The notes under the pieces: model-generated
What the model saw: only the letters and a program-made list of their open reading frames with translations
Database searches by the model: none
What the model was told of the DNA's origin: nothing
Program-made: the position numbers and the translations under genes
From: a virus
IMG/VR virus record: IMGVR_UViG_3300022591_000055
Location: 1 to 27,784 of that record
Direction: 5' to 3' (one strand)
Length of the DNA: 27,784 nucleotides
Shown here: in pieces, positions 11,666 to 26,772 of the stretch
Numbering within the stretch: position 1 is the stretch's first letter
Layout: the number at the start of each line of letters is the position of its first letter

Positions 11666-13462
11666 TTATCCTTTTTTGTTAATTTTATAAATCCATACCG
11701 AATTACCACAGTCCCATATTCTAGTATAGTTGTTGTTTTGCATGTTTTCCCATTCCGTAAGAGCAGGATCAAATGTTGCTAATAAATCTTTCTGTTTATG
11801 TTTTTGAAATTTAAGTCTACTCACTAATGATGGTTGTGAATTTAACGAGAAATAAAAATAGTTAGGAGTAGAATTATGTGAAAATTCAAAACCTAAATGC
11901 TTATACATATTTCCACTAAACCATCTTCGGTCAGCATATGTTATAATAGTAGTAGGTGAAAAATTTCTCACAAAATATAAAAACAATTTACTTGCTCCGC
12001 CAACTACATTAGTATGTGTCAACTGACAATACCTTACTAATTCCCACTCTATCGTTTTGTTGAATCTAGATTTACCAAAAGTCATCAATGCAGTTAATTC
12101 ATTATTAATATATAATCCTAAATTAACTGAACTGGCTGCATCACCTTGTAGATGGTTGTTTTGTAAAAATAATTTTTTATCTGCATTAGATACAATAGAT
12201 ATTCGACCTTTTCTTGCATACAATGTTTTATTTTTTTTCAAATATGAATTAATTACAGATGTTACAATATCACGTTGATTATACCATTCTATATCCCATA
12301 TATGCAATAATTGTATTCCTAGTTCATCACATTGTTCAGTCTTGTTAACGTGGTATTTTTTGTCTTTACCCTTTGCTTCAGAATGCCAATATACCCCATT
12401 GCATTCTATTGCTAACCTATATGATGGCAAGAAACAATCTATTTCACGAGGAGGTATAACATTCCTTGAATTAAATTCAACATCGTAATTTGATAACATG
12501 GTATTTCGAAAATCAATTTCAAATTTTGATATCGTATATGGGTTACACTTTCTACATATCGGAGTTCTTCCATTTATTATAGTGTCTTCAAACTCATGAC
12601 TGCAAGTAGTACATTTCCAGCAATACCTTTCTGTTGTGCCGTTATATTCAGCAACATCAAACAATGGTATAACCACATTGCTAACCCTATCTGGAATATT
12701 ATTATAAAAATTATCACGACGTGTTTCTTTAATGCAATTCTGTGCAGTAGTTAATTTAAATATATTATCAACACCATATTTTTCCAAACATGTGTTTTTT
12801 ATTTTATCATTAACCCCTGGTATATCCCTAGCATTTGTAACCCCATATTTTTCTGTTAATACAGATTTTAATTTCTTCATATGAGATATCGAATTAATCT
12901 TCCATGCTGCACTGCTTTTTGTTTTTATATGCTCGTTTTTTGCAGGATTATCTACTCCATATTTTTCCAAACATGTGTTTTTTATTTTATCATTAACCCC
13001 AGGTATTTCCCTGGCATTAGACACTGCATACTTTGTTTCCAGACTTTGTTTAACTCTTTCAGCACTTCTAAAATAATTGTCATATCCGTATTTCACTATA
13101 TTAGTTTCATAGCGTTTTTCATTTATTTTTGCTTTATCTTCATCAGTAAGAAGTTGCTTTGAGTTAATACAAGAACTGCGTTTTGATTTTATACAGCATT
13201 CACATTTAGAACCACAATAACGGTAACCTACTGCGAATGAAACAAATTTTACTAAGTTACTAGGGCAATGTTTATCGTTTTGATATTGAAAATTATATAA
13301 TAATTCACCATCAGTGTTGAATGGTTTACCAACCAAAGATACTACATCTTCCCACAAACCTTCAATTTTTAAATATGCAATAACTTTACGACTATTGTTG
13401 TTAAATTCTGCCAGTTTAGTGCTAATCAACAGTTGCAATTGTGTATGCGTATTTTTATTCAT
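11666..13462 (-). CDS. Free-standing homing endonuclease, EDxHD/Vsr-like family (598 aa)
   Basis: A DNA-cleaving mobile element gene. The catalytic domain (about 335-395) has REIDCFLPSYRLAIECNG, then VYWHSE, then HVNKTEQCDELGIQLLHIW, the pattern of Vsr-like EDxHD homing endonucleases related to I-Bth0305I. N-terminal to it are three or four EKYGV(D/T)N DNA-binding-type repeats (125-233) and zinc-ribbon cysteines (CWKCTTC at 281-287, CRKC at 303-306); another Cys cluster lies at 83-98. Its ATG overlaps the uvsW stop (TAATG) and its stop is 1 bp from the next ATG, so it is inserted seamlessly between two phage genes. The lowered codon-level conservation expected of a mobile gene cannot be tested here. 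Confidence 0.85.
   Translation of the reverse strand: MNKNTHTQLQLLISTKLAEFNNNSRKVIAYLKIEGLWEDVVSLVGKPFNTDGELLYNFQYQNDKHCPSNLVKFVSFAVGYRYCGSKCECCIKSKRSSCINSKQLLTDEDKAKINEKRYETNIVKYGYDNYFRSAERVKQSLETKYAVSNAREIPGVNDKIKNTCLEKYGVDNPAKNEHIKTKSSAAWKINSISHMKKLKSVLTEKYGVTNARDIPGVNDKIKNTCLEKYGVDNIFKLTTAQNCIKETRRDNFYNNIPDRVSNVVIPLFDVAEYNGTTERYCWKCTTCSHEFEDTIINGRTPICRKCNPYTISKFEIDFRNTMLSNYDVEFNSRNVIPPREIDCFLPSYRLAIECNGVYWHSEAKGKDKKYHVNKTEQCDELGIQLLHIWDIEWYNQRDIVTSVINSYLKKNKTLYARKGRISIVSNADKKLFLQNNHLQGDAASSVNLGLYINNELTALMTFGKSRFNKTIEWELVRYCQLTHTNVVGGASKLFLYFVRNFSPTTIITYADRRWFSGNMYKHLGFEFSHNSTPNYFYFSLNSQPSLVSRLKFQKHKQKDLLATFDPALTEWENMQNNNYTRIWDCGNSVWIYKINKKG
12774..13000 (-). repeat. 44-bp identical direct repeat inside the homing endonuclease
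   Basis: 12774-12817 and 12957-13000 are identical over 44 bases, 183 bp (61 codons) apart. They encode the duplicated GVNDKIKNTCLEKYGVDN segment. Identity at the nucleotide level indicates a recent duplication or gene conversion of DNA-recognition repeats. Confidence 0.88.
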
Positions 13463-16291: not shown

Positions 16292-16530
16292 TAGAAATCG
16301 CCTTCGTCGTGGTAATCATCGTCATCATCTTCAACATTATCTTCGATATATGTGTTGATTGCATGATCTAAAATTGCATCAACACCTAACGCATGTTGTA
16401 ACACTGTTTCACTTACATCATGATCTACTAACAATGTCACGTATCTTTCTGCAACATCTTCTATTTGTTTTTTATCAATATAATCAGCAAATAGTGTCCA
16501 TACTTCTCCAATTTGTATCTCATTTAACAT
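16291..16530 (-). CDS. Small acidic protein between uvsX and uvsY (79 aa)
   Basis: Helical N-terminal part (EIQIGEVWTLFADYIDKKQ, then VAERYVTLLVDHDV) and a strongly acidic tail (NVEDDDDDYHDEGDF). The start overlaps the uvsX stop and the stop overlaps the uvsY start, both as TAATG. A gene of this size and character at this site is common in marine T4-like phages as I recall. The acidic tail could mimic DNA or contact UvsX or gp32; no function is established. Confidence 0.78.
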   Translation of the reverse strand: MLNEIQIGEVWTLFADYIDKKQIEDVAERYVTLLVDHDVSETVLQHALGVDAILDHAINTYIEDNVEDDDDDYHDEGDF

Positions 16531-18011
16531 TAATTATCCTCTAAATCATTATCTGTTTCTAATTCTGGTTTTTCAACCAATGGTATTTTTTTATTAAATT
16601 CTTCAATTACTAAATCAAATATACCATCAGTATTACGGTTCCATTCTTTTCTAAAATACTTATGAACTTCACCATTAAGGTCAACGTATGAATACCTATT
16701 ACCTTCTTTAGTAATCAAATTACGTTTTTCTAACAACTCGAACAAGCCACTATATGGACTCATTCCGGTCTCATACGGAATACGAATTTCAATATCTTCA
16801 AAAGGTTTATTATATCTAGTTTTCATTATTTTACATCCAGACCGAATACCATTTACAGTTGTAGTTTTGTTTCCATCATCATCTTCTTTGAGTTTAAACT
16901 TCTTCATTGCAACTACAATAGATGACGCGTATACAAACATACTACCACCACTGATTTTATCATCAGGGTTATATGGATCTTGTGATGCGTATGTATGATT
17001 AGTACACACCATACCAACATTATAACTTCCAAACATATTAACACAATTTCTCACTAGTGCTGCTAATGATTTAGGTTTTCTACCCATATCACCTTTCATA
17101 TCACCAGCTTCAAATTGATTAACATCAGTCGGAGTTAATAACATGCCCAGTGAATCAACTACAAACAGAATTTTAGGACGCTCATCTTCTGGCATGGATT
17201 TATACTCTTTCATGAATTCGCTAATAGTTTTAGCAACATCATCAATCATCGCCATGTTCATTTTTAGTAATTTTTCTGGGCTAGTATCTACCCCTAATGC
17301 ATGTAACCAGGTTTCGTCAAGTGCATTCTCACTATCAATAAGAATCACATATATACCTTGTTCTTGTGCATCTTTAATCATATTGCCTGAACATAGGTAA
17401 CTTTTACCGCTATTATGACTTGAAATACCATCACCCCAATAACGATGATTATCATGTAATATTTCAAAATCATAACATTCTTCTGCTTGGTTGCTTTCCA
17501 CCAAAATGATTTCTTCAACTCCAGTTCTAGTTAGAATCTTATCACCGATTGATAACTCACTAGCTAAAATCCAAGAATCGTCTGCTAACTGCAATAAGTG
17601 CCGTTCAGCACAGCGTGTCGCATAGTTTTCAGTAACAATATTAACTAGAGGCATTATACCTTTATTAAACCACTTACCGATAGACTGATATCCGTCAGGA
17701 GTATCGACTTCAATATTGTATAGGCCGCTGTCATAAAGTTCTTTAAGTTCTTCTACTGTTACTTCTTTTGTAATCTCTTCATTTTTCATTTTAATTTTTA
17801 TAGTAGCAGATTTAGGCAAGCACCCTGATTCACCAGCAAATACAGTCACTTTACCTAATGGTACTCCTTTTTTAAAGTCACCACTAATTAAATAATTTAA
17901 TGCATAACACCCAGTACTGACCCAATCAGTTGGGTCACTAAACCCAATACTGATTCCATCAATACTTTTTGTTATACTTTTACGAAATTTTGACAAGTCA
18001 AATGGTTTCAT
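16530..18011 (-). CDS. uvsX: UvsX recombinase (RecA family) interrupted by a mini-intein
   Basis: Strand-exchange protein for recombination-dependent replication. ATG 18011 (MKPFDLSKFRK) is chosen because ACGGAGG lies just upstream; the frame extends to 18053 without a better site. The precursor is 493 residues; removing intein residues 64-200 leaves 356 (T4 UvsX 391). The exteins rejoin to the Walker A sequence GESGSGKSYLC. Other RecA features follow: ILIDSENALDETWLHALG, Walker B PKILFVVDSLGML, and MVCTNHTYAS with DKISGGS. The C-terminus is acidic (ETDNDLEDN), as in RecA proteins. Activity requires intein splicing because the insertion splits the ATP-binding loop. Confidence 0.94.
   Translation of the reverse strand: MKPFDLSKFRKSITKSIDGISIGFSDPTDWVSTGCYALNYLISGDFKKGVPLGKVTVFAGESGCLPKSATIKIKMKNEEITKEVTVEELKELYDSGLYNIEVDTPDGYQSIGKWFNKGIMPLVNIVTENYATRCAERHLLQLADDSWILASELSIGDKILTRTGVEEIILVESNQAEECYDFEILHDNHRYWGDGISSHNSGKSYLCSGNMIKDAQEQGIYVILIDSENALDETWLHALGVDTSPEKLLKMNMAMIDDVAKTISEFMKEYKSMPEDERPKILFVVDSLGMLLTPTDVNQFEAGDMKGDMGRKPKSLAALVRNCVNMFGSYNVGMVCTNHTYASQDPYNPDDKISGGSMFVYASSIVVAMKKFKLKEDDDGNKTTTVNGIRSGCKIMKTRYNKPFEDIEIRIPYETGMSPYSGLFELLEKRNLITKEGNRYSYVDLNGEVHKYFRKEWNRNTDGIFDLVIEEFNKKIPLVEKPELETDNDLEDN
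17412..17822 (-). mobile_element. Mini-intein (137 aa) in the uvsX P-loop
   Basis: Self-splicing protein element. It begins with catalytic Cys (CLPKSATIKIK, block A), has a block-B-like region with His at intein residue 75 (CAERHLLQL), then ILASELSIGDKI, block F YDFEILHDNHRYWGD and block G GISSHN, followed by extein Ser (+1). The C-A-E-R-H form of block B recalls the C-S-E-E-H of phage inteins such as gp41-1. There is no homing-endonuclease domain: only about 137 residues. Both borders are verified in the DNA (TGC at 17822-17820, AAT at 17414-17412, then AGC). Confidence 0.93.
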
Positions 18012-18030
18012 GTATATCCTCCGTATTATG

Positions 18031-18054
18031 AGTGGGAAGAATTTTCTCCCCACT
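18031..18054 (-). promoter_or_regulatory. Intercistronic hairpin between gp32 and uvsX
   Basis: AGTGGGAAGAA (18031-18041) and TTCTCCCCACT (18044-18054) pair over up to 11 positions with one G-U or A-C mismatch depending on strand. It lies 22 bp after the gp32 stop and 20 bp before the uvsX ATG, just upstream of the GGAGG site. No T-run follows, so attenuation or mRNA processing is more likely than full termination. Confidence 0.6.
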
Positions 18055-18076: not shown

Positions 18077-19096
18077 TTATTTACTGCGATTACGAATCAT
18101 TGCAAGAATATCAGCTGCTCTACTGTCACCACCAGCTGTAGCTGCGTCTGCTACAGGTGCTTCAGTCGGTGCTGGCGCGGCTACTGGCGCAACATACGCT
18201 TCTTGAATTACAGGTTGAGCATTATTAGTTTGAGTAGATGTCTCAAACGGTACCACATCATCTGAAGATGTATTTGTTGAAGATGTAGAGTTAATAGGTT
18301 TAAACCCAGCCGGTTTATAGTACTGCCCCCAACGTTGCTCATCATAAGGTTCGCCATTTATTGATGCTTCAAACATTTCTGAAATAACTTTAAGTTCTAC
18401 ATCTGAAGGTTTTTTAGGTAAGAATGATGATAAATTTTGTAATCCATAAGTAGCAATTGCATCAGATTCTGCTGCATTAAGTGGTCTTTCACGGCGACTC
18501 CAACTTGAAGTTGAATAATCTGCGTACTCTCCTTTTTTACCGCTTTTTAGACGGAAATCTAACCCATGAACATAATCCGTTGGTGATTCAAGCAATTCAG
18601 GATCAACCAATGATGCTTTAATGAGTGTGAATATTTGTGGTCCAATTAAGAATCTACGAATAGGATTTACTGGTGCATCTTTTTCACCTAAACCATCTTC
18701 TACTACAATACCTTGAAAAATAAAACTGCGTTTTTTCCAATATTTTCTAGCCATTGACTCTAAACTTGGATCTTTAAACCAAGGTCTTACCTCAGATAAA
18801 ATCGGACATACTGAACCATCTTCGTACATTTCCATGCAAGGTACTTGAACAACTACTTCTTTAGTATCAATTTCACCTTTGATTCCAGCAAAAGGCAATT
18901 TAATCATTGCACGTTCTACCCAGAAGAATGTATTTTTATCATTGCCGTCTGGTAAGAATCTAATAACAGATTCTCCACCTTCTTTAAGATTCCAGAATGG
19001 ATAACTTGTATTATCACCATTATTGGATTTGTTTGAATCTGAACCTCGTTGTTCAGCTTGTTTTAATTTTTCTCTAATTTCTTGAAGTGTTGCCAT
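18077..19096 (-). CDS. 32: gp32 single-stranded DNA-binding protein
   Basis: Coats single-stranded DNA in replication, recombination and repair. 339 residues (T4 gp32 301). N-terminal basic segment for cooperative binding (LQEIREKLKQAEQRG, 4-18), then the OB-fold core with the gp32 pattern YPFWNLKEGGESVIRFLPDG (32-51), FFWVERAMIKLPF and EVRPWFKD. Only two Cys (87 and 97) remain of the T4 zinc site, so zinc binding is doubtful. The C-terminal 70 residues are Ala/Pro/Thr-rich and end in RNRSK rather than the acidic tail of T4. AAGGA site upstream of ATG 19096. Own promoter and long structured leader. Confidence 0.92.
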   Translation of the reverse strand: MATLQEIREKLKQAEQRGSDSNKSNNGDNTSYPFWNLKEGGESVIRFLPDGNDKNTFFWVERAMIKLPFAGIKGEIDTKEVVVQVPCMEMYEDGSVCPILSEVRPWFKDPSLESMARKYWKKRSFIFQGIVVEDGLGEKDAPVNPIRRFLIGPQIFTLIKASLVDPELLESPTDYVHGLDFRLKSGKKGEYADYSTSSWSRRERPLNAAESDAIATYGLQNLSSFLPKKPSDVELKVISEMFEASINGEPYDEQRWGQYYKPAGFKPINSTSSTNTSSDDVVPFETSTQTNNAQPVIQEAYVAPVAAPAPTEAPVADAATAGGDSRAADILAMIRNRSK

Positions 19097-19141
19097 AGTT
19101 TTTTCCTTATTGTAATAAATTATTGTAATATACCCTATTCA

Positions 19142-19165
19142 GCAGATTACGCTCTGCGGCCAGCG
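19142..19165 (-). promoter_or_regulatory. Candidate gp32 autoregulatory pseudoknot in the mRNA leader
   Basis: Within the roughly 110-nt leader of gp32 mRNA, CGCT (19165-19162) pairs with AGCG (19153-19150), while GCAG in its loop (19157-19154) pairs with CTGC (19145-19142): an H-type pseudoknot with two 4-bp stems and 4-nt loops. A TTTAC/GTAAA hairpin lies just 5'. Downstream is AT-rich unstructured RNA with two copies of ATTACAATAA before the ribosome site. T4 gp32 represses its own translation through a leader pseudoknot and such an unstructured tract. Confidence 0.6.
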
Positions 19166-19214
19166 TTTACTTCTTGTAAATCATGCCTTGATCTTGCAAT
19201 CATTCACATAATAC

Positions 19215-19243
19215 ATTATACTATATTATGTTTATAATTGCAA
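19215..19243 (-). promoter_or_regulatory. Sigma70 promoter for gp32-uvsX-uvsY-uvsW operon
   Basis: Minus-strand TTGCAA (19243-19238) and a perfect TATAAT (19220-19215) have a 17-bp spacer. The predicted start near 19208 gives a leader of about 110 nt before the gp32 ATG. Confidence 0.65.
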
Positions 19244-19262
19244 GAACTATTTTATTTATTTG

Positions 19263-20450: not shown

Positions 20451-22676
20451 TTATAATCCTGCATATTTTCTAATCTGAGCCAAATCATCAGATTCATTAA
20501 CTTGTAATTCACGAACCATGATTGTCATTTTATCAAGTCTTGAATCACCATCATGTTTTTTAATACCAGCTAAATGCATAACGTCATCATGTTCTTGAGA
20601 ATGTACATCCGAGCTTGGATCATCTTCTTCAATTTCAGCTAATACTTGTTTAACGTCTTCAATAGTAGCATGTTTATATTCACCACCACGAAACTTCTTT
20701 TTAATTTTTTCTTTTACTGCAGTGCCGCCTATAGTATAATTACCATTGCCATTCTCACCATCTTCGTTCCAGAATCCTTCTATAGAATCTCTAACTTCTT
20801 GTATTCCATTTGACTCATTATCGTCTTCAGAAAATCCACATTCCATTGGGTTCAGACCACATTCTCTAATGGCATCTTGTAGTGTCATACCTTCAGCAAA
20901 TTGTGTAGATAATGTAGCGCCAGATTCACGAACTTTAATAAATTTTGCTTTTATTTTAGCTAATTTATCTGAGCTTTCTGCTATTGGAGCAGGCGGTGGT
21001 AATTCACCTTCTGGTGGAGGCGGCAATTCGCCCTCTGGTGGTAATGCAGCTTCTGGTGGAGCTAGTGGTGCTGGTGCTGGTGCTGGTGCTGGTGGAGCAG
21101 ACAAAGATTGATCACCTACCGCAGAACTGTCTCCAGTACCAAAATTTAATTGCATTGCCACGTCTTCATCTCGGTAGTTTACATATTTTTCAATCATGGC
21201 ACGCACATCTAAATTTGGATTAATATGTCTTAGAGATTCTATAAATGCAGGATCATCAATTATTCCTTGTAGACTGGCGATTGCAGTTATACCATCTGGG
21301 CCATTTAATAATTCACGAGAAAGAATATCATTAAGTTTATCAATTGCACGTTTTCTAGCACCTAAATTATTACTAAATAATTCATCTTTATCCTCGTTTA
21401 ATAAACCCTCAACAAATGACTCAAATTGTTTTTCTGGATTTAATACTTTGCGTTTTCTTGGACGAGATTTTGTATCATAATGCACTGGGCGTTCGTACAT
21501 GCCGGTATCATTACGATATATTACCATCACGCGTGGATGTCCTGTTTCATCTTCATAGTTAATTCTAGCAGTTTCACCATATGAAATGTTTTGTCCAAAT
21601 GGCCAGAAATCAATTAATCCTTCTGCTTCTAATGCAGCATTTAAAGTTGGAAACCAATTTTGTTTTGAATGACGGCTTCCTTCGTCTAATAAATCATCAA
21701 CTGATAATTCTTTAACTGGTGCAGCGGATTCGCCTACCAATTTATATATGTATGGAAATACTGATTTTAGATCTTCATTAAAGGTACGAATGGTTAACCG
21801 ATCAACCCAATCATTCATAATATCTTCCGGAATCATTTTTTCTTCAGTATCTTCGTATGAATCTGCAAAAGATTTGTAATACGTTTCTCTTTGTAAATTT
21901 TGAACATGTTTTTTGATGTCATTGATACGATCTCCGACTTGTTCATTGATGTCGCCCATTGCTTCTGATAATTGCTCTTGACGAGAAACATATCCTTTAA
22001 ATTTTCGTAGTTGATTTAATTCTTCGCTCAAACTAGTAATATGTTTTCCGATTAAATCATATGGATTACCACCGTGTTTTATATGTTCTGCTAAAGCTCT
22101 TGCCCCAGGTAAATGTTTATATGGGTAGCGAAACCGTTCACCTTCTGCATTTTCAATATAAATTTTATCAATATGCATTGAACGACCAGCAGCTACTGTT
22201 TCGTTCACTGATTGACTATGCTTTATGATTAATCTTGTTTCTCCTAAATCTTGGTAACTAATTTTTGATGTACCAAACATTTTATTTTCCATAATGGGTT
22301 TTTCCTTCCTTGTTGACACAAAGTTATATCGTTTCTGTAAATTATTTTGACCTATATGTTGTACATCAAAATTTAACAATCTATTTTTGGCAAATCGTCT
22401 AAATGATCTTAAAAATCTAAATGCAGCCTTATTTTTGTTTGTAGTTAAATCGCCGCATATCTGCACCAATATTCCATCATCTTGATCTAACGTTATTGAA
22501 ATAGTTCCTAAAGAGACTCCATCACGTAAATATTCAAACTCAAAAAATCTAGCTTCTGGGATATCATCTTTTTTGGTTAAAACTGTTCCATGTTTATCAC
22601 CAATTTTAATATCAGAAAATCTAGTTTGAATTTTTCCGTATAAGTCTAATGCTATTTTATTTAAATTATTGTCCAT
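20451..22676 (-). CDS. Large conserved T4-superfamily protein, probable virion component (741 aa)
   Basis: I recall this family from marine T4-like phages; function unassigned. N-terminal domain 1-125 (IALDLYGKIQTRFSDIKIG, FFEFEYLRDGVSLGTISI), then a second domain with SKISYQDLGETRLIIKHSQ and IYIENAEGERFRYPYKHLP (about 136-215), helical and coiled-coil-like region 215-300, a Pro/Ala-rich hinge with LPPEGELPPPPEGELPPP (about 562-600), and a helical C-terminus ending DLAQIRKYAGL. The hinge DNA contains GGTGCT microsatellite copies near 21066-21091. An internal ATG (22292) has a strong AAGGAAGGA site and could make a shorter product. Located beside terminase. Confidence 0.75.
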   Translation of the reverse strand: MDNNLNKIALDLYGKIQTRFSDIKIGDKHGTVLTKKDDIPEARFFEFEYLRDGVSLGTISITLDQDDGILVQICGDLTTNKNKAAFRFLRSFRRFAKNRLLNFDVQHIGQNNLQKRYNFVSTRKEKPIMENKMFGTSKISYQDLGETRLIIKHSQSVNETVAAGRSMHIDKIYIENAEGERFRYPYKHLPGARALAEHIKHGGNPYDLIGKHITSLSEELNQLRKFKGYVSRQEQLSEAMGDINEQVGDRINDIKKHVQNLQRETYYKSFADSYEDTEEKMIPEDIMNDWVDRLTIRTFNEDLKSVFPYIYKLVGESAAPVKELSVDDLLDEGSRHSKQNWFPTLNAALEAEGLIDFWPFGQNISYGETARINYEDETGHPRVMVIYRNDTGMYERPVHYDTKSRPRKRKVLNPEKQFESFVEGLLNEDKDELFSNNLGARKRAIDKLNDILSRELLNGPDGITAIASLQGIIDDPAFIESLRHINPNLDVRAMIEKYVNYRDEDVAMQLNFGTGDSSAVGDQSLSAPPAPAPAPAPLAPPEAALPPEGELPPPPEGELPPPAPIAESSDKLAKIKAKFIKVRESGATLSTQFAEGMTLQDAIRECGLNPMECGFSEDDNESNGIQEVRDSIEGFWNEDGENGNGNYTIGGTAVKEKIKKKFRGGEYKHATIEDVKQVLAEIEEDDPSSDVHSQEHDDVMHLAGIKKHDGDSRLDKMTIMVRELQVNESDDLAQIRKYAGL

Positions 22677-22688
22677 CTCTTATTTATC

Positions 22689-24287
22689 CTAATTCTGATA
22701 ACTTGTCGTTATGTAAATTGGCATAGGTGCATCCCATTCTGGTTCATCGTCATTTGAACTCAATGTTTCAAAAACGCGTGGATCCCATTCAGCTAATATA
22801 ACACTCATTCTGACTATTAGCAATAAAGCAGACACCAAATCATCATTTTGGCCAGATTTTGCTTTAAAACTAACACCGTTAGCAATATAAGTTTTAAGTT
22901 CAGATATCAACGATTTACTATTAATAGTCATCTTTTTTTCTTCAATTAAATATTTTAACTTAGCACATGCTGCTATCTTATTTCCATATGTAGTATTAAA
23001 ACCTTTTCTAAATTTTCTTACATGACCTTTTCTAACTGGCTCTGAAACAAATAATCCAGGAAAAGTTTCCTCGCCTAAATCCTTAATAACAATTAATGCA
23101 GCTTCACCTAATGAATTATTTTCAGTTGACCAATATATTTGCGATGCATTTGATTGACCAATTTCGTCACGGATATAATTTAAAATATCTCTAAATAATT
23201 TAACTTGTTGTTGAACTGGTGTGATGTTATGTCTCCACTCACCTACCTGTGTAAAACTTGGTAATTCAAAAATTTGTATTGCCGCATAATCACCACCAGT
23301 TCCTAAACTAGGATCTAAAGATGCCAAATATAATGAATTAGGGTCTAGTTTTTTATACCATCTTACTTCACCCAATTTACTGATAGGCTCCTTGCCTACC
23401 ATTTCAGATAACAAAATACTATTAACTAATGTTTCATCAAAGGCCAAGAACTCTAAACCATATTCACGTCTAAAAGCTTCTTCACCTATTCTTCCCATTT
23501 CTTTCTTTTTCCATTCTTCATCTCTATCAGGATGATCATACCATTCTGATCTAAAGCCATGGAACCCATTAATACCTAATCCAGTATCTGTTTCATTTCC
23601 AAACTCATCAAATTTATATTGGCTTTCTTTCCAAATTGTTGCAAAAGTATCTTCATCGCTGTTTGGTGTGCTTGTAATAATAGCACGCCCACCAGTTGCT
23701 AATGTTGGTGAGATTGATGTCCAAAATTCTGATGCAATATTTGGTGGAACAAACGCAAACTCATCATTGTAAAGTAAAGATATTGACATTCCTCGCCCAG
23801 TGTTACCAGTTGTAGTAGTACTGACGATTCTTGAACCATTATCAAATTCAATAGAACCTTTATTATAATTTACTACTCCACAACGTATATGGTCAGGGCA
23901 CAATTCATAGCCATATCGTATACGTTGCATTATTTCCTGTGCACCAGAGAATTTATGGGCAGCCACTAATATTGTTTGGTCTGGATGAAACATTGCGTGC
24001 CATAGAAGATATACACCAGCACAAGTAGTTTTTCCAGATTGGCGAGGAAGGATATTTATATTAAATGTATAATTATGATAACTTTTTAATAAGTCTTCTT
24101 GGAATTTATACGGTTGAAATAGCATTTTTCCTTTAGTAGGATGCTGTATATAATAGAAATTTTTTGCAAAGTAAAGATACCCATCTTCTGGATCAGAACA
24201 TGCAATTAAATCTTTTACATGTTCTTCTGTAAAGTGTTCTTTAATATTTGATTTTTTGGTTACTACGCCGTCTAGAAATTTTGCCAA
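22689..24287 (-). CDS. 17: Terminase large subunit (T4 gp17)
   Basis: Packaging motor ATPase and headful nuclease. 532 residues (T4 gp17 610). Walker A LPRQSGKTT (80-88), Walker B ISLLYNDEFAF (169-179) and coupling motif ITSTPN (204-209) form the ATPase. The C-terminal RNase H-like nuclease has ASLDPSLGTGGDYAAI (Asp 325 and 333), STENNSLGEAAL, and DDLVSALLLIVRM near the end. The start appears to be TTG 24287 preceded by GGAAG; no in-frame ATG lies between it and an upstream stop. It follows gp16 after two virion-type genes rather than directly, unlike T4. Confidence 0.94.
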   Translation of the reverse strand: MAKFLDGVVTKKSNIKEHFTEEHVKDLIACSDPEDGYLYFAKNFYYIQHPTKGKMLFQPYKFQEDLLKSYHNYTFNINILPRQSGKTTCAGVYLLWHAMFHPDQTILVAAHKFSGAQEIMQRIRYGYELCPDHIRCGVVNYNKGSIEFDNGSRIVSTTTTGNTGRGMSISLLYNDEFAFVPPNIASEFWTSISPTLATGGRAIITSTPNSDEDTFATIWKESQYKFDEFGNETDTGLGINGFHGFRSEWYDHPDRDEEWKKKEMGRIGEEAFRREYGLEFLAFDETLVNSILLSEMVGKEPISKLGEVRWYKKLDPNSLYLASLDPSLGTGGDYAAIQIFELPSFTQVGEWRHNITPVQQQVKLFRDILNYIRDEIGQSNASQIYWSTENNSLGEAALIVIKDLGEETFPGLFVSEPVRKGHVRKFRKGFNTTYGNKIAACAKLKYLIEEKKMTINSKSLISELKTYIANGVSFKAKSGQNDDLVSALLLIVRMSVILAEWDPRVFETLSSNDDEPEWDAPMPIYITTSYQN

Positions 24288-26346: not shown

Positions 26347-26772
26347 TTAATGAAACAAATCGTTCTCGGTCAAAACTCTGAACTTTATTCCTTGTTGTTT
26401 ACAATAAATTGAAGCAGCTTGCCATTTAGCTTGATTCTTTATGAATTGTGCTTGGTTATATCTACTTTTACCTGTTCGCTCCATTAATGTTTGACTTGCT
26501 GGCTTGATTTCTATTAATTCAACCATCATTTTATTATTTTTATCCAAATATTGTATAAAGAAATCAGGAACATATACTGTATTTTTTCCTGTTAAAGGAT
26601 CTTTATATGGTATACGTATTGCTTCACTTGCCCATTTTTGTACACTAGAATGTGTATCACAAAAATTACAAAAATTCCACTCCCAACTAGAACGATAAAT
26701 TGGAAGTTTAGTCCCTATATATTTATCTGGGTTCTTTGGTGTAAATTTTCCATTAGCAAATTTACTAGCCAT
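26347..26772 (-). CDS. 4: gp4 head-completion protein (nuclease-like fold)
   Basis: Completes DNA-filled heads before tail joining in T4. 141 residues (T4 gp4 150). Diagnostic blocks: NPDKYIGTKLPIYRSSWEW (14-32), FCDTHSSVQKWASEAIRIP, VYVPDFFIQYLD and MVELIEIKPASQT, the PD-(D/E)xK-like pattern of the gp4/TnsA-type fold with Asp in PDF and Glu-x-Lys in EIK. ATG 26772 overlaps the TAG or TAA region of the preceding gene by one base. Lies directly upstream of gp16. Confidence 0.88.
   Translation of the reverse strand: MASKFANGKFTPKNPDKYIGTKLPIYRSSWEWNFCNFCDTHSSVQKWASEAIRIPYKDPLTGKNTVYVPDFFIQYLDKNNKMMVELIEIKPASQTLMERTGKSRYNQAQFIKNQAKWQAASIYCKQQGIKFRVLTENDLFH

Follow-up and report, generated by a model that had tools for sequence, protein, structure and literature searches.

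The closest described counterparts of the leader analysed here are the gene 32 operators of phages T4 and RB69. According to the available text of PMC535899 and PMC3014915, the T4 operator has two parts, both essential for repression: a pseudoknot of about 28 nt and a less structured RNA segment, longer than 40 nt, that carries UUAAA/UAAA repeats. In the same available portions the gene 32 leader of RB49 is reported without a pseudoknot, and the two sources differ on whether it retains A/U repeats. In T4 the gene immediately upstream of gene 32 is segG, which encodes a homing endonuclease, and the accessible part of PMC2988022 places the gene 32 promoters inside segG. Autoregulation by T4 gp32 is classic; its reach among phages had been open. 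Our literature searches, carried out mostly outside subscription journals, returned, among the papers listed, only those on T4 and RB69 as relevant for gene 32/gp32 pseudoknots, no jumbo-phage ssDNA-binding protein with translational repression, T4 reviews and unrelated work only for homing endonucleases combined with gene 32, pseudoknots or operators, and no account of the present leader or of an endonuclease that provides gp32 with a substitute leader.

The window studied here is a virus record of 27,784 bases, in which an intergenic stretch of 166 nt precedes a gp32-like gene. The encoded protein belongs to the gp32 family by its Pfam match, which at 27.9 bits is barely over the curated cut-off of 26.8. 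Homologues were found in 61 named phage records, more than 200 kb in 57 of the 60 listed. Among the matches listed, the closest named homologue is that of Sinorhizobium phage Phosso (57% identity), those of PA5oct, Atu_ph07, 121Q and RaK2 lying below it; several named homologues are annotated as ssDNA binding protein and others as hypothetical or structural protein. The window protein differs from T4 gp32, with which it is 23% identical in a 13-row alignment. As the initial annotation had recognised, the full zinc site is missing, since only two cysteines (C87 and C97) of the four T4 zinc-site residues are kept, and so is the acidic tail, the C-terminus being basic (DILAMIRNRSK). In T4, autogenous control is described as still intact after a small deletion in the C-terminal segment of gp32 (available text of PMC535899). 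Structure prediction was uninformative for the window protein (mean pLDDT 37.5), and a PDB sequence search gave no relevant match.

Read 5' to 3', the leader presents a promoter within a dyad, AAGTAAAC, a candidate pseudoknot, two ATTACAATAA copies with a period of 13 nt, AAGGA and the gp32 ATG (Table 1). The fold, ACGCU-GGCC-GCAG-AGCGU-AAU-CUGC, is predicted from 70 to 46 nt 5' of the ATG, which is the T4-operator distance (about 40-70 nt before the gene 32 start); run on the T4 record (L374), the same scanner detects the pseudoknot already known there, at -67. The 4-bp stems and 4-nt loops first proposed about 50 nt upstream of the start correspond to this fold, because with a 4-bp S1 the loops become GGCC and UAAU, and the two repeat copies then noticed before the ribosome site are the ATTACAATAA copies ahead of AAGGA. 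A pseudoknot of about 25-28 nt at this position, followed up to the Shine-Dalgarno sequence of gp32 by an A/U-rich, nearly unstructured and repeated tract (-1.2 kcal/mol for the last 46 nt), resembles the T4 and RB69 operators. However, there is no sequence similarity beyond chance, the best pairwise matches being 13 and 8 nt (E 0.46), the stems measure 5 and 4 bp in the window against 4 and 7 bp for T4 in the scanner's reading, and the repeated unit is ATTACAATAA, with no UUAAA. The repeat is 11 nt long, a length that also arose in 4 of 2000 trials when the 46-nt tract was shuffled and in 9 of 500 when the whole 166-nt leader was.

Table 1. Features of the gp32 leader, in window coordinates.
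Feature	Position	Strand	Basis or remark
Candidate H-type pseudoknot	19142..19166	minus	Sequence, scanner, shuffles, pair table, similar folds in L218/L219/L222 types
Pseudoknot stem S1, ACGCU with AGCGU	19166-19162 with 19153-19149	minus	Sequence
Pseudoknot stem S2, GCAG with CUGC	19157-19154 with 19145-19142	minus	Sequence
Pseudoknot loops, L1 GGCC and L3 AAU	19161-19158 and 19148-19146	minus	Sequence
A/U-rich tract with two ATTACAATAA copies (19129-19120 and 19116-19107)	19107..19141	minus	Predicted almost unstructured
Ribosome-binding site AAGGA	19104..19108	minus	7 nt before ATG at 19096; sequence
AAGTAAAC immediately 5' of S1 and sharing the first two S1 bases	19165..19172	minus	Leader comparison
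gp32-like ssDNA-binding protein gene, 339 aa	18077..19096	minus	Pfam PF08804 gp32, E 2.8e-6
Sigma-70-type promoter TTGCAA-N17-TATAAT	19215..19243	minus	10/12 consensus matches
Long dyad around promoter, TCTTGCAATTAT/ATGATTGCAAGA, 12 bp with one G-T; inner ACATAATATA/TGTATTATGT	19192..19245	minus	Fold and relatives' comparison

From the promoter we infer that transcription begins near 19208, which would put about 110 nt of mRNA ahead of the ATG; the promoter scan found 11 sites overall against 8.7 expected, a count that is not significant. Promoters within long dyads also occur in the gp32 region of related loci (L290, L246, L259, L296, L297 and L300, in addition to the window; longest arms 9-23 bp, G-T allowed). 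The sequence of these promoter-spanning dyads differs between phages, and the whole dyad hairpin would form solely in read-through RNA. The leader as a whole folds far better than its shuffles (z -5.2), mainly on account of the promoter dyad and not of the pseudoknot. Reading 19149-19166 as a plus-strand terminator (a 5-bp site) was rejected: the scan gave 3 sites against 1.4 expected, and no plus-strand gene was seen leading in. The pseudoknot scan also showed a hairpin, AGUGGGGAG...CUUCCCACU, between gp32 and uvsX (18016-18054, minus strand).

The pseudoknot was compared with chance by scoring 2000 dinucleotide shuffles of the 120-nt leader against its best variant (-17.1; S1 and S2 as tabulated give a stacking energy of -16.8). 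This energy was reached by 20 of the 2000 shuffles, 7 of them with the fold at a comparable position; the T4 control gave 11 and 3, respectively. Three sister leaders described below had their own stacking energies reached by 2 (L218), 13 (L219) and 24 (L222) of 2000 shuffles, and 28 of 692 segments of 120 nt from the window matched the energy of the leader pseudoknot. Taken alone, the fold is weakly better than chance; similar folds in relatives carry the case. Rfam returned no match at its gathering threshold in the window or in eight related loci including T4 gene 32; the best sub-threshold match in the leader was to a snoRNA family (E 0.052).

The nested minimum free energy structure of the leader contains a GCAGA/UCUGC hairpin instead of the pseudoknot. 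It is therefore conceivable that a plain 5' hairpin, formed by S1 or by GCAGA/UCUGC, stabilises the mRNA or nucleates gp32, and that the complementarity of S2 is incidental. S2 is not rare in locally shuffled sequence: when the 22 nt downstream were shuffled, an S2 of equal length appeared in 146 of 5000 trials for the window (L218, 470; L219, 277; L222, 882), and when the whole tract was shuffled, in 32 (L218, 5; L219, 21; L222, 516). S1 by itself makes a 7-bp hairpin in the L218, L219 and L222 types, but in the window it has 5 bp only and closes an 8-nt loop.

The sister types L218, L219 and L222 (locus equivalents L290, L246 and L259, respectively) were found by a search with a neighbouring, faster-evolving protein (20451-22676). 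Their leaders share one layout: AAGTAAA, S1, a short loop, S2, S1', a loop, S2', AGGG, an A/U tract, AGGGAAAU and ATG. The pseudoknot starts at -72 to -81 in the three sisters, hence at -70 to -81 over all four types. AAGTAAAC stands at S1 in the L218 and L219 types as well, with AAGTAAAAC in its place in L222. S1 reads ACGCU/AGCGU in the window, ACACG/CGUGU in L218 and ACACA/UGUGU in L219 and L222; S2 reads GCAG/CUGC in the window, GCAGU/ACUGC in L218, ACAGU/ACUGU in L219 and CAGU/ACUG with an outer A.C in L222. Two of the five S1 pairs are thus changed on both sides, pair 3 (A-U in all three sisters against G-C in the window) and pair 5 (U-A, G-C or A-U), together with one of the four shared S2 pairs (pair 1, G-C or A-U), the other three being invariant. 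A MAFFT alignment of the four leaders shifts S1 by 2 columns because the length of L1 differs, and the pairs were for this reason tabulated from hand-set stems and not by the pair counter, in a table without a shuffle control of its own. The absence of covariation, named at the outset as an outcome that would speak against the fold, was not what we found; the both-sided changes come from four types only, and S2 contributes a single covarying pair. For an incidental S2, the pairing of 4-5 bp in all four types, with one pair changed on both sides, is unfavourable.

The tracts of the sisters carry the T4-type element. In the last 40-50 nt, UUAAA occurs five times in L219, three times in L218 and in T4, once in L222 and not at all in the window; ACAATAA is present twice in the window tract and once in that of L222. 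Folding of the final 42-46 nt ahead of the ATG yields 0 kcal/mol for each of the three sisters, compared with -1.3 for the final 39 nt in T4. The parallel with the T4 operator drawn in the initial annotation is stronger than could be seen from the window alone, given the matching position, the pseudoknots of the sisters and the repeated UUAAA in two of them; the window's own tract has no UUAAA. At the sequence level, a pairwise search aligned the window leader with that of L222 (80% over 35 nt, E 0.001) and gave no match beyond chance with L218, L219 or T4 (best 8-13 nt, E 0.46-0.73). As the match is to L222 only, common descent of the four leaders rests on L222, the layout and the stems; L219 and L222 are close to each other in the leader region.

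This leader is not the common one of the gp32 group. The gp32-based scans of viral contigs, whose loci counts are lower bounds and beyond which closer relatives may exist, returned mostly leaders of another, AGGC type. The first yielded at least 80 loci, comprising a near-copy of the window (L001; its contig has 22 differences in 5667 nt, an identity of 99.6%, and its leader shows no change in the last 130 nt) and others with a different leader where a leader was present. Among 101 representative gp32 leaders, 75 carry at least two AGGC[AT] elements within the final 75 nt, the pseudoknot is present in 4, and the remaining 22 show neither feature. The AGGC-repeat leader is widespread (relatives L002-L080 and L293-L372), and two loci of this type, L003 and L016, gave no Rfam match. 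A pairing of AGGCA with the mRNA 5' end is possible, seen only as a nearly invariant UGC:GCA. Further searches covered genome contigs (no relative found), an exact-stem pattern (34 stretches, no gp32 leader by tblastn save that of the near-copy), a second pattern (50 stretches, 8 with gp32) and a third (5 stretches, of which 4 were gp32 leaders already known and L375 shows no gp32); blastn of the window leader against phages gave 84 records, and none of the 15 listed had an E value below 0.5.

In a large AGGC subgroup a hairpin stands before the first AGGC, with stems of at least 7 bp in 67 of 72 distinct segments against 20.5 expected, and in an alignment of 42 sequences both-sided changes occur at 5 of 9 consensus pairs. 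These relatives, many with a covarying hairpin, are comparable to RB49 as gp32 leaders departing from the T4 fold, to judge from the available account of RB49; theirs, too, is a leader with structure, of a kind other than that in the window. A covarying plain hairpin at so many related loci favours the simple-hairpin explanation of the window leader as well; set beside the S2 pairing in four of four types and the short S1 of the window, it leaves that explanation unlikely, and we continue to prefer a pseudoknot operator. That the AGGC leaders might hide the same pseudoknot was considered and rejected: 62 of 160 passed a limit of -14.5 against 3.7 expected, but the best folds listed were mostly promoter hairpins, which also shows that a scan score by itself lacks specificity. 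A PA5oct pseudoknot set by eye was also discarded, as the scanner (whose loop limits may exclude it) did not return it and the best other fold was matched by 21 of 200 shuffles.

In the three sister types the leader comes with a homing endonuclease gene. L290, L246 and L259 carry between the peptidoglycan-binding gene and gp32 a gene whose product has NUMOD3 above the cut-off, 28% identity to a SEG-like endonuclease of phiM9 (E 2e-7), a PADLOC HEase match (E 2.1e-4) and TIGR01453 below its cut-off; the protein that it matches best in the database comes from a Vibrio phage (31.5%) and bears the label head-tail adaptor. By NUMOD3 and Seg-type similarity it is classified as a Seg-like homing endonuclease. 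It resembles T4 SegG and other free-standing Seg enzymes in having NUMOD3, and its gene lies just before gp32, as segG does in T4; BLAST found nothing meaningful in common with SegG (best E 1.4), and, unlike segG, the gene is inserted after gp32's own start codon with a second gp32 leader behind. The endonuclease was detected (E 1e-6) in at least 16 loci, all with a pseudoknot-type gp32 leader, and in none of the other gp32 loci that could be judged; 241 of the 279 gp32 loci have at least 900 nt upstream, and 38 were not judgeable.

The arrangement around this gene records a replacement. Its 5' flank is a gp32 leader of the AGGC type which, start codon included, matches those of L296, L297 and L300 with 80-89% identity across 118-126 aligned positions; L296 and L297 are of the AGGC type and have no endonuclease at that place. 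The old gp32 start codon now opens a frame of 14-15 codons (MATIHTSQIWIILTL, MRAIQSSRSLEKEI and MATLQISQLWYMILR) whose stop overlaps the endonuclease ATG (in L290 this supposes a start at MTISLY, whose in-frame ATG is 18 nt into the ORF as listed). On the 3' side, gp32 has its own leader with promoter dyad (L246 and L259), pseudoknot and tract. With the native leader stranded 5' of the endonuclease, the pseudoknot leader replaces it in the three sister types, as expected if gp32 needs an operator, since the endonuclease separates gp32 from its native leader and a pseudoknot and tract stand there instead. On the gp32 tree the pseudoknot rows do not form one clade, the AGGC-type L296 and L297 falling among them; the endonuclease insertion and the leader change visible upstream offer a reason for this scatter. 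The pseudoknot leader of the window comes directly after the peptidoglycan-binding gene; this endonuclease and the native leader are both absent there, and either both were lost or a window-like leader was picked up by the endonuclease. That ATGATTTACAAGAAGTAA before S1 might be a scar of the endonuclease 3' end was rejected, because AAGTAAAC lies after the endonuclease stop in the L219 and L222 types.

These observations could also mean that the leader is the right end of a homing-endonuclease cassette, kept for its promoter and start site only, with a fold of no regulatory role. The pseudoknot leader does adjoin the endonuclease in three of four types, the endonuclease is found at no other gp32 locus among those judged, and the region behind it supplies a start codon and, in L246 and L259, a promoter dyad. 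Yet the window and its 99.6% identical contig keep the fold with no homing endonuclease beside gp32, the stems differ by both-sided changes, and the L218 type (L290) has no promoter dyad in the 96 nt examined while retaining pseudoknot and tract; we hold a passive cassette end to be improbable. For a gp32 operator, the best reading is that it has moved between phages. Tentatively, and at slightly less than even odds, we suggest that the T4-like gp32 operator, pseudoknot and repeats, is a transferable module that travels together with the Seg-like homing endonuclease, whose insertion point is immediately behind the gp32 start codon. The native operator and start would pass to the endonuclease through the 14-15-codon ORF, gp32 would receive a replacement operator and start, and the phage of the window would keep, or resemble the source of, this replacement without the endonuclease.

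Other putative mobile elements were seen in the window and its relatives. The UvsX/RecA ORF (16530-18053, minus strand) has an apparent mini-intein in its Walker A motif (GESG|CLPKSATIK...HN|SGKSY), which by its motifs is a putative intein; uvsX of L296 has a similar insert start at the same point, and L246, L259 and L290 have none. The TerL genes of the sisters (L259:8169-10742, L246:7006-9579 and L290) look intein-interrupted by their motifs, L290 with further inserted ORFs, and the window TerL (22689-24287) has no such insert. A 598-aa ORF (11666-13462, minus strand) beside a UvsW-like helicase has DUF7487 and a sub-threshold match to the restriction-endonuclease-like MTES_1575, and is possibly another mobile endonuclease. 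The 141-aa protein at 26347-26772 (minus strand) has a TnsA-like endonuclease N-terminal domain (PF08722, E 1.6e-23); T4-like phage proteins of this kind probably serve in head completion.

We assign a probability of roughly 0.57 to the reading of the leader as a T4-like gp32 translational operator, a value slightly lowered by the single UUAAA of L222 and the weak sequence similarity to L218 and L219. By analogy with T4, as set out in the available text of PMC535899 and PMC3014915, the mRNA would start at the dyad promoter and fold into the pseudoknot about 40 nt further on; once the protein exceeds the ssDNA of the cell, the pseudoknot would nucleate gp32, more monomers would bind cooperatively along the unstructured, repeated A/U tract, and gp32 would cover the ribosome-binding site and stop translation. 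With repeats that are not UUAAA and an autoregulation that is predicted only, the leader does not qualify as an established member of the T4 operator class. The operator might conceivably serve another regulator, such as a RegA-like repressor or an RNase, given that sequence does not identify the ligand, that T4 has other leader-binding repressors (available text of PMC3014915) and that read-through RNA would contain a strong hairpin just upstream; however, the T4 order of pseudoknot, UUAAA repeats and Shine-Dalgarno sequence is described, in the accessible portions of the literature, for gp32 control, and the gene behind this leader is gp32, which makes another regulator very improbable.

A gp32 operator of T4 type would thus occur in a distant jumbo-phage group, beside relatives with an unrelated AGGC/hairpin leader, a setting in which one can test if several unrelated RNA operators are recognised by a single family of ssDNA-binding proteins. 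The sister loci further suggest a route by which a selfish endonuclease may enter the front of an essential gene, namely by bringing a working replacement for its control region.
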